54,361 nucleotides of DNA from Acidobacteriota bacterium (GTDB lineage Bacteria; Acidobacteriota; Vicinamibacteria; Vicinamibacterales; SCN-69-37), in contig SYFT01000025.1 of NCBI GenBank assembly GCA_005799825.1, forward strand, positions 1 to 54,361. Direction: 5' to 3'. A program made the translations under genes and the position numbers. Below, one piece after another: positions 578 through 2,927 of the stretch (positions are counted from its first letter, which is position 1; each line of letters begins with the position of its first letter). Under the pieces are notes generated by a model, which saw nothing but the letters and a program-made list of their open reading frames with translations, was not told the DNA's origin and did no database searches.

Positions 578-1210
578 ATGGCGAGATATATCGGACCGGT
601 TTGCCGGTTGTGCCGGCGAGAGGGCATGAAGCTTTTCCTCAAGGGCGAGCGGTGCTACACGGAGAAGTGCGCGATCGAGAAGCGCAACGTACCTCCTGGC
701 CAGCATGGCCCCTCGCGGCGGCGGGCGAAGGTGGCCGGCTACGGCATCCAATTGCGCGAAAAGCAGAAGGTCAAGCGCACGTATGGCGTACTTGAGAATC
801 AATTCCGCCGCTACTTCGAAGCGGCCGACCGGCAGAAGGGCGTGACGGGCGAATTGCTGCTCCAGTCGCTCGAACGCCGGCTCGACAACGTCATCTACCG
901 GGTGGGGTTCTCGACCTCGCGCGCCCAGGCACGGCAGCTGGTGCGGCACGGGCACTTTCTAGTGAACGGCAAGAAGGTGGACATTCCATCGTATGCGGTG
1001 CGTCAGGGCGACACGATCGCCGTGCGTCAGGGCAGCGTCGAGAATGCGTCCATCAAACACGCGATGGAAGAGGTCAAGGGCCGCGGTGTGCCCGAGTGGC
1101 TGACCATTGACGCCTCTGGGGCTGCAGCGCGCATTTCGTCGCTGCCGACTCGCCAGCAGATCAACCTGCCCGTGCAGGAACAGTTGATTGTCGAGCTCTA
1201 TTCTAAGTAA
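578..1210 (+). CDS. rpsD: 30S ribosomal protein S4
   Basis: S4 is a primary 16S rRNA binder of the 30S body and, in several bacteria, an autoregulator of its own operon. The 210-residue product has the expected length, starts [16 protein letters not shown] and carries an S4 RNA-binding domain around residues 97-160 ([14 protein letters not shown]). Cysteines at about 9, 12, 26 and 31 form the zinc-binding C+ version of S4. It lies 25 bp after rpsK. The next gene, rpoA, is separated by an unusually structured 135-bp gap. Confidence 0.98.
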
Positions 1211-1242
1211 GGCCTTGTACTCGAAGTAGCGCACACGCGCCA

Positions 1243-1325
1243 GTTCCCGGCCCGCAGCTCTTCAGACCTGCAGCGGGAGGCCGGGAACATCATTGCAGGT
1301 CTGGACGAACCGGATTCCGGTTCGT
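1243..1325 (+). promoter_or_regulatory. Structured rpoA leader: interleaved stems (possible pseudoknot) plus a palindrome
   Basis: Three perfect inverted repeats fill the rpsD-rpoA gap. Arm GTTCCCGGCC (1243-1252) pairs with GGCCGGGAAC (1279-1288). Arm CAGACCTGCA (1263-1272), in the loop of the first hairpin, pairs with TGCAGGTCTG (1294-1303) outside it, giving an H-type pseudoknot or two mutually exclusive hairpins. A third repeat, ACGAACCGGA-T-TCCGGTTCGT (1305-1325), ends 20 nt before the rpoA ATG. In Escherichia coli S4 represses its operon through a pseudoknot, though in the rpsM leader. A similar role here is inference; transcription processing or attenuation is also possible. Confidence 0.6.
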
Positions 1326-1345
1326 GCGGCGAAAGGAAAAAGACG

Positions 1346-2323
1346 ATGTTGTGGAAAGGTTTTCAACGGCCCAAGCGGCTGGACTTTGAGCGCGAGACCC
1401 TGACGGACCGGTTTGGCCGATTCACGGCGCAGCCCTTCGAGCGTGGCTTCGGCACGACCGTGGGCAATGCGATGCGTCGTGTGCTGCTGTCCTCGATTGA
1501 AGGCGCAGCGGTGACGGCGGTTAAGATCGAGGGCGTGCAGCACGAGTTCTCGCCCATTCAGGGTGTGGTCGAGGACGCGACCGACCTGATTCTGAACCTC
1601 AAGCAGATCCCGCTCAAGGTGCACACCGACCAGGCCAAGACGCTCACGTTACGCGTCACCAAGGCCGGCGACGTGCGTGCGCGCGACATCCAGGTGGACA
1701 GCGACGTGGAAATCCTGGAACCGGATGCCCATATCGCCACTGTCAGCGAGGGTGGCAAGCTGGAGATGGAACTGCGGATCAAGCGCGGCCGCGGCTACGT
1801 GTCGGCCGACAAGAACTTCGACGAGGACCTGGGCATCGGATGGATTCCGATGGACTCGGTGCACTCGCCGATCAAGAAGGTCAACTACGTCGTGGAAGCC
1901 GCACGTGTTGGTCAGACCACCGACTACGACAAGCTCACGCTTGAAGTGTGGTCGAATGGCGCCGTGACGCCGCGTGACGCCGTGTCACTGGCGTCCAAGC
2001 TCATTCGCGACCACTTCACCATCTTCGTGAGTCTCGAGGACCTCGGTGAGTCGGCGCTCGACGCGGCCGGCGACCAGCCGCTGACCTCGGGCAACGAGTA
2101 CCTCGATAAGAGTGTCGAGGAGCTGGAGTTGTCGGTGCGTTCGTACAACTGCCTCAAGAACGCCAACATCCGCACGATTCGCGAACTGGTGCAGAAAGGC
2201 GAAGGCGAGATGCTCAAGACGAAAAACTTCGGGCGCAAGTCGCTTAACGAAATCAAGGAAATTCTCACCACCATGGGCCTGAGCCTGGGCATGCGCCTAG
2301 ATCAATCGGGTTCAGGCGAGTAG
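1346..2323 (+). CDS. rpoA: DNA-directed RNA polymerase subunit alpha
   Basis: The alpha dimer is the scaffold for RNA polymerase assembly, and its C-terminal domain contacts UP elements and activators. The 325-residue length is typical. The N-terminal dimerisation domain shows [20 protein letters not shown] near residues 30-50. A flexible linker follows, then the helix-hairpin-helix C-terminal domain ([33 protein letters not shown]). A purine-rich AAAGGA lies about 9 nt before the ATG. It is downstream of the structured leader and 22 bp before rplQ. Confidence 0.98.
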
Positions 2324-2345: not shown

Positions 2346-2927
2346 ATGCGTCATCGGGTAGCACATCGAAAACTCGGCCGGGTTACTGAACACCGGATCG
2401 CCATGCTTCGCAATCAGGCTTCCGACCTGATCAAGTACGGCCACATCACCACAACCGTGGCGCGGGGCAAGGAACTGCGCCCGTTCGTCGAGCGGCTGAT
2501 CACGCTGGCCAAGCGCAGTCTCGGCGACGAGCCGAGCTCGCCCAAAGGCGTGACGGCGCGCCGGGTCGTGGCCATGGACATCGTGGACAAGGCGGTCGTC
2601 AAGACGCTGTTCACGACCATTGCGCCACGGTATGCGGATCGCAAGGGCGGCTACACGCGCCTGCGTCGCGCCGGGTATCGGCGCGGCGACAGTGCGGAGA
2701 TCGCGGAAATCGAACTGCTCGGCAGCGAGTTTGACCCTAACGCTGAGGTCGCGCAGACCAAGACGGCCGAAGCCGACAAGCCGAAGAAGACATCGGTCGG
2801 CGGCCGTATCCGTCAGGCGTTGACGGGTGGACGTTCCAAGGTCGATGGCGCCGGCGGCGCCAAGGCCGACAAGCAGGCCAAGGGCGGCAAGCGCGTCACC
2901 ACTCCGCGCAAGGCTGGCGGCGCGTAG
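2346..2927 (+). CDS. rplQ: 50S ribosomal protein L17 with long C-terminal tail
   Basis: L17 binds 23S rRNA near the exit tunnel. The first ~125 residues match the family (MRHRVAHRKLGRVTEHR, ASDLIKYGHITTTVARGKEL, RLRRAGYRRGD). The protein is 193 residues against a usual 115-140. The extra ~65 residues are Lys/Ala/Gly-rich and low complexity (TKTAEADKPKKTSVGGRIRQ and beyond). AGGAA precedes the ATG by 8 nt. It is the last gene of the operon and is followed by a clear intrinsic terminator. Confidence 0.97.
   Translation: MRHRVAHRKLGRVTEHRIAMLRNQASDLIKYGHITTTVARGKELRPFVERLITLAKRSLGDEPSSPKGVTARRVVAMDIVDKAVVKTLFTTIAPRYADRKGGYTRLRRAGYRRGDSAEIAEIELLGSEFDPNAEVAQTKTAEADKPKKTSVGGRIRQALTGGRSKVDGAGGAKADKQAKGGKRVTTPRKAGGA

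Follow-up and report, generated by a model that had tools for sequence, protein, structure and literature searches.

In Escherichia coli, the target of ribosomal protein S4 is a pseudoknot in the rpsM leader. S4 represses rpsM, rpsK, rpsD, and rplQ, whereas rpoA escapes this repression and is under independent regulation (PMC10931766). How the synthesis of RNA polymerase alpha is set apart from its ribosomal protein operon is poorly known. Published tables of r-protein leaders place S4 leaders at the starts of operons and the L17 leader before rplQ, and contain none in Acidobacteria (PMC7247131). A survey of 104 motifs described L17DE and classed Acido-1 and Acido-Lenti-1 as non-cis-regulatory (PMC2864571). 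The literature searched yielded no account of an element preceding rpoA in Acidobacteria, and the cis RNA of the alpha operon reported here is apparently undescribed.

This study analyzed a window of 54,361 nt, which corresponds to positions 1-54,361 (forward strand) of contig SYFT01000025.1 of assembly GCA_005799825.1 and originates from the order Vicinamibacterales (Acidobacteriota). The window begins within the alpha operon, in which rpsK (97-552) is followed by rpsD, rpoA, and rplQ, and an intergenic gap of 135 bp separates the end of rpsD from the start of rpoA. The first-pass annotation had described in this gap two perfect 10-bp inverted repeats with alternating arms and a palindrome at 1305-1325. 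An inverted-repeat search recovered all three: the arms 1263-1272/1294-1303 pair perfectly over 10 bp, the arms 1243-1252/1279-1288 are likewise perfect and sit within a 17-nt, 82% repeat (1243-1259/1272-1288), and the palindrome comprises two perfect 10-bp arms (1305-1314/1316-1325) around a 1-nt center. An additional pairing that had been suggested between CCCGC (1251-1255) and GCGGG (1273-1277) held in part; its CCGC/GCGG portion is the P2 helix, but the pairing as originally written overlaps P1. According to the alignment of relatives, the conserved pairing consists of a 9-bp P1 and then P2, with a 3-nt GAG bulge (Table 1), and A1272-T1294 lengthens the pseudoknot helix in the source sequence. 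When the 135-bp gap was dinucleotide-shuffled 20,000 times, the chance of any single 10-bp inverted repeat was 0.8% and that of interleaved arms of even 8 bp was 0.19%; the folding z-score of the gap was -3.2. P3 ends 6 nt before the Shine-Dalgarno sequence in the source sequence. Both the Shine-Dalgarno sequence and the rpoA start codon lie outside every helix, and thus no direct sequestration of the Shine-Dalgarno sequence is visible.

Table 1. Features of the rpsD-rpoA gap and the adjoining genes, in positions of the window
Feature	Position	Strand	Evidence or remark
rpsD, S4 (four-cysteine type), upstream neighbor, rival ligand candidate	578-1210	+	
Core pseudoknot RNA element	1241-1305	+	Covariance model R1, 81.5 bits, E 3e-17, sole match in the genome
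P1 5' arm GTTCCCGGC	1243-1251	+	Partner 1280-1288; all 9 of 9 pairs with changes on both sides
P2 5' arm CCGC	1252-1255	+	Partner GCGG 1273-1276; 93.9% paired, nearly invariant
Loop L1 AGCTCTT	1256-1262	+	AGC nearly invariant; L1 length 5-9 nt among relatives
Pseudoknot helix 5' arm CAGACCTGC	1263-1271	+	Partner 1295-1303; 99.2% paired, 6/9 pairs changed on both sides
P2 3' arm GCGG	1273-1276	+	Pair counts
GAG bulge, conserved 3 nt, between P2 and P1	1277-1279	+	Alignment of relatives
P1 3' arm GCCGGGAAC	1280-1288	+	Inverted repeat and pair counts
Loop L3 ATCATT	1289-1294	+	L3 length 5-10 nt among relatives
Pseudoknot helix 3' arm GCAGGTCTG	1295-1303	+	Inverted repeat and pair counts
P3 hairpin, 10 bp here, directly 3' of the pseudoknot	1305-1325	+	Stem recurs in relatives
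rpoA Shine-Dalgarno sequence AAAGGA	1332-1337	+	8 nt before the ATG; conserved as GCGAAAGGA among relatives
rpoA, RNA polymerase alpha subunit, likely regulated gene	1346-2323	+	Spacing to the pseudoknot
rplQ, L17 with a basic C-terminal tail ending TTPRKAGGA; proposed ligand and proposed second regulated gene	2346-2927	+	

We compared the rpsD-rpoA gap across Vicinamibacterales relatives, with the titles of the closest records providing the order assignment. When 36 distinct cores were aligned, a single anatomy emerged, comprising a 9-bp P1, P2 (CCGC/GCGG), the GAG bulge, the AGC loop, a 9-bp helix between the loop and downstream sequence, P3, and GGCGAAAGGA. Genomes were searched with R1, a covariance model built from just the nested stem, without the pseudoknot helix. 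Matches to R1 occurred in 90 of the 162 Vicinamibacterales genomes, approximately 87 of them strong and mostly single per genome; the strong copy was single in most carrier genomes and, wherever rpoA was located, always preceded it. A wider sample of 396 genomes from across the phylum yielded strong R1 matches only within Vicinamibacterales. Twelve weak matches in the phylum (E 1e-4 to 1e-2) were taken as chance, those checked beyond the order having no alpha-operon genes nearby; the two with open reading frames listed (L275 and L280) fall in open frames.

All carriers are apparently uncultured MAGs. Complete single-contig genomes (G016 and G028) exist in one family that lacks the element, whereas no carrier seen was a single contig, and this lack of single-contig carriers may explain why the element escaped earlier description. 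A possible second copy in one genome (G002, L150) was rejected as a fragment next to a stray rpsD 3' end; this locus (G002:C11) lies outside the alpha operon and carries, at positions 2329-2478, the last 29 rpsD codons and then the initial portion of the element. Another locus (L331, G048:C129) exhibits an apparent deletion, either real or an assembly error, from the last 19 rpsD codons through the 5' half of the element, and keeps the 3' pseudoknot arm and P3.

Compensatory changes, which the first-pass annotation had proposed seeking in related genomes, were found in both interleaved stems. In a set of 86 distinct sequences, with shuffles (500) and slid pairings as controls, 96.2% of cells paired compared with 86.8% after shuffling, and double-sided changes were observed in 167 cells compared with 32 in the shuffles (0/500); the slid controls were only 27-48% paired. 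G-U exceeded A-C by 52:6 in P1 (outermost pair excluded) and by 12:0 in the pseudoknot helix, which demonstrates selection on the sense RNA and not on DNA palindromes. A perfect 6-bp P3 stem occurred at the same position in 70 of the 86 genomes. Because RNAalifold returned no structure on the tail alignment, P3 was examined by a fixed layout, which, among 51 tails selected solely for their loop motif, was 98.7% paired compared with 87.6% after shuffling. P3 was absent in a close relative (L002/L156). P2 and the bulge were recoded from CCGC/GCGG with GAG to CAGC/GCGAGC, mostly in genus g19 of family f2 (L030, L145, L250, L259, L261, L262, and L264-L266), and L153 (CAGC/GCGGGC) is an intermediate of this recoding. 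Insertions, several of them hairpin-forming, were observed between P1 and the 3' pseudoknot arm or within P3 in L147, L251, L235, L145, and L265, and the helices flanking them were retained.

Two interleaved helices that are both under selection, the mark of an H-type pseudoknot, were thus present, and these comparisons make it nearly certain that the knotted RNA structure is real. The initial suggestion of a pseudoknot-type candidate regulatory RNA is strongly supported by the double-sided covariation, the sense-strand selection, and the single-copy conservation. In 28 of 87 sequences, L3, with just 5 nt, would need to bridge a 13-bp stem; the two helices might therefore alternate rather than coexist. 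The P1/P2 hairpin was more stable than the pseudoknot helix alone in 75 of the 87 sequences. Given this hairpin stability and the short L3, a switch between two states is possible.

Between the pseudoknot and the rpoA ATG, the median distance was 40.5 nt (IQR 39-43), whereas the rpsD stop codon was 66 nt from the element (IQR 36-85, minimum 8), with the spacer ranging from 8 to 177 nt. This spacing, tight to rpoA and loose to rpsD, indicates that the element is fixed to rpoA. A dedicated rpoA promoter downstream of the stems had been named as contrary evidence to look for; the approximately 40 nt available there are occupied by P3 and the Shine-Dalgarno sequence, leaving no room for one. On the upstream side, spacers down to 8 nt leave no room for a promoter ahead of the element in several genomes, and a simple scan revealed no sigma-70-like promoter. 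The spacer between rpsD and the element (L008, L030, L054, and others) is often full of short direct and inverted repeats, the sequence of which is lineage-specific.

Two genomes, G010 and G012, carry an operon in the order rpsM-rpsK-element-rpoA-rplQ, from which rpsD is gone (L141, L142, L143, and L144). The sole S4 found in these genomes is a cysteine-free S4 encoded elsewhere (41-43% identity) with no element beside it. The retention of the element without an operon rpsD demonstrates that adjacency to the S4 gene is not required.

Two further arrangements were observed at this position of the operon. In G159 of family f4, a family without the pseudoknot element, no rpsD was found between rpsK and rpoA (L219 and L286). 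In families f12 and f13, the last 40 nt before rpoA contain a small interleaved arrangement, GGCCT-GA-CGCCG-AGGCC-TGAGAG-CGGCG, which adjoins the rpoA Shine-Dalgarno sequence (L014, L016, and L019); in these three sequences only, it possibly forms a minimal pseudoknot in place of the large one.

A search of the source stretch with the 4227 models of Rfam 15 yielded no match at the gathering score. Six weak matches (up to E 10, at 1200-1360) were regarded as chance, and RF00140 was not among them. The covariance model, run unfiltered against the E. coli rrnH operon, returned E values of at least 1.1 and thus no rRNA likeness, and no recognizable rRNA was found in the source MAG.

Throughout the order, L17 carries a long, variable, and basic C-terminal extension (2727-2924 in the window; L155-L184 and L288-L327 in relatives), the last residues of which, TTPRKAGG[SA], were conserved only in RNA-bearing genomes. 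The C-terminal peptide [T/A]PRK[A/V]GG was present in 35 of the 44 genomes with the RNA and in 0 of the 19 without it; the tips thus comprised 35 with RNA and peptide, 9 with RNA only, 19 with neither, and 0 with the peptide but not the RNA. These counts derive from L17 sequences that were read directly, a DNA pattern scan having given some chance matches away from rplQ (checked in G009 and G075). The nine carriers that lack the peptide belong to f3 and part of f6, indicating that the peptide is not strictly required. No individual residue column of RpoA, S4, or the L17 core (0.69 at best) reached the association seen between the RNA and the L17 peptide (phi 0.73-0.76), and the L17 tail was the sole protein feature for which co-variation with the RNA was detected. 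A dependent-evolution model was favored (LR 20.0, p 5e-4; LR 24.4 on the S4+RpoA tree and 22-32 in 15 bootstrap trees); because Pagel-type tests can be inflated by few deep or ancestral changes and the peptide feature was found by inspecting the data first, the link to L17 is a lead and not proof.

A conserved, covarying structure in the untranslated mRNA of an r-protein operon, such as characterizes cis-regulatory RNAs of these operons, was found at this locus, and we consider it likely that the element is a cis-acting RNA controlling rpoA-rplQ; from its position, we infer that it acts on the translation of these genes. The main alternative to translation control is transcript processing or stability, in which the element would have no protein ligand and would insulate rpoA-rplQ from the upstream cistrons, for example if cleavage in the spacer generated a new 5' end with this structure, or would serve as a translation enhancer. 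The independent regulation of alpha from the rest of the operon in E. coli (PMC10931766), the very stable GC-rich structure, the hypervariable upstream spacer, and the extra hairpins inserted in some relatives are all compatible with this alternative, but the near-invariant AGC of L1 and the bulge, the coordinated recoding of P2 and the bulge in one genus, and the co-variation with the L17 peptide suggest specific recognition rather than mere stability, and we regard it as unlikely. A feature of the DNA itself, such as protein-binding palindromes, a promoter region, or a mobile repeat, could account for inverted repeats in an intergenic gap with a repeat-rich upstream spacer in some relatives; nevertheless, the excess of G-U over A-C in the helices is explained only by pairing at the RNA level, the element is usually present in a single copy per genome, and the promoter scan and the shortest spacers argue against a promoter, so that this explanation is extremely improbable.

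Autogenous control of rpoA by RNA polymerase alpha would fit the adjacency of the gene and its role as the spacing anchor; however, the L17 tail was more strongly associated with the RNA than any alpha residue was, we are aware of no case in which alpha represses by binding mRNA, and this possibility appears very unlikely. The first-pass annotation had envisaged a pseudoknot that balances S4 and alpha, and S4 might bind the element to balance alpha and L17 or to retro-regulate rpsD. E. coli S4 controls translation of the alpha operon through the rpsM-leader pseudoknot (PMC10931766), S4 leaders exist in several phyla (PMC7247131), rpsD is the upstream neighbor in most genomes, and S8 offers a known case of retro-regulation through an internal site (cited in PMC2864571). 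The pseudoknot of that proposal stood, but the role assigned to S4 was not supported in the form proposed: the spacing is fixed to rpoA and not to rpsD, no Rfam S4 leader matched, the sole covarying protein feature belongs to L17, and the alpha cistron escapes S4 control in E. coli (PMC10931766); the retention of the element in G010 and G012, where the cysteine-free S4 gene has no adjoining element, also counts weakly against S4. An S4 ligand is thus quite unlikely. We prefer L17 as the ligand, on circumstantial evidence, as a plausible candidate that nevertheless falls short of being probable.

In the explanation that we favor, the alpha-operon mRNA at 1241-1325 folds as an H-type pseudoknot, comprising a 13-bp P1/P2 stem with the GAG bulge and a 9-bp pseudoknot helix, and the P3 hairpin follows just upstream of the rpoA ribosome-binding site. 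The element probably works in cis on rpoA and on the rplQ cistron behind it. Under the L17 reading, free L17, when exceeding its rRNA site, would bind the pseudoknot, partly via the conserved C-terminal peptide, and the bound protein would hinder 30S initiation at rpoA by exclusion or entrapment; the levels of RNA polymerase alpha and L17 would thereby track the ribosome supply. More tentatively still, the element may represent a new RNA class, in which L17 would read an alpha-operon pseudoknot through a C-terminal peptide kept for this purpose and would tie the alpha supply to free r-protein, the RNA and the peptide being kept or lost together across the order. The carriers are many uncultured soil and groundwater Acidobacteria, in which the RNA probably lets an r-protein, by our best guess L17, tune the amount of the alpha subunit. 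This large uncultured order, with its dedicated RNA under strong selection at the rpoA ribosome-binding site, offers a concrete, testable device, and the natural variants, in which rpsD is lost from the operon, P3 is missing, P2 and the bulge are recoded, or the L17 peptide is lost, are ready-made controls.

Similar to the S8 site in the spc operon, the element is an intra-operonic mRNA site proposed to serve an r-protein repressor. The S8 site resembles rRNA, whereas no rRNA likeness was found for the Acidobacteria element, and the gene adjoining it encodes RNA polymerase alpha. The L17 r-leader (Actinobacteria and Proteobacteria) and L17DE (Firmicutes) are likewise structured RNAs thought to serve L17 feedback; the former lies directly before rplQ alone and the latter after rplQ, whereas the Acidobacteria element precedes rpoA-rplQ, with rplQ one gene further, and no Rfam similarity was detected. 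The E. coli S4 leader of the alpha operon (Alpha_RBS, RF00140) is also a pseudoknot in alpha-operon mRNA, and the two share the proposed translational action with an r-protein repressor. However, Alpha_RBS occupies the rpsM leader, and the rpsM ribosome-binding site forms part of its pseudoknot, whereas the Acidobacteria element is situated in the rpsD-rpoA gap, stops 40 nt short of the start codon, has no Rfam match, follows a different helix plan, and survives the loss of rpsD from the operon. The S4 r-leaders of Bacteroidia, Flavobacteria, Clostridia, and Fusobacteriales, reported in a study whose main text mentions no Acidobacteria motif (Eckert and Weinberg 2020), are similarly covarying cis RNAs of alpha-operon genes that are limited to one lineage; these leaders are located at the operon start, before rpsD or rpsM, whereas the Acidobacteria element is internal and precedes rpoA.
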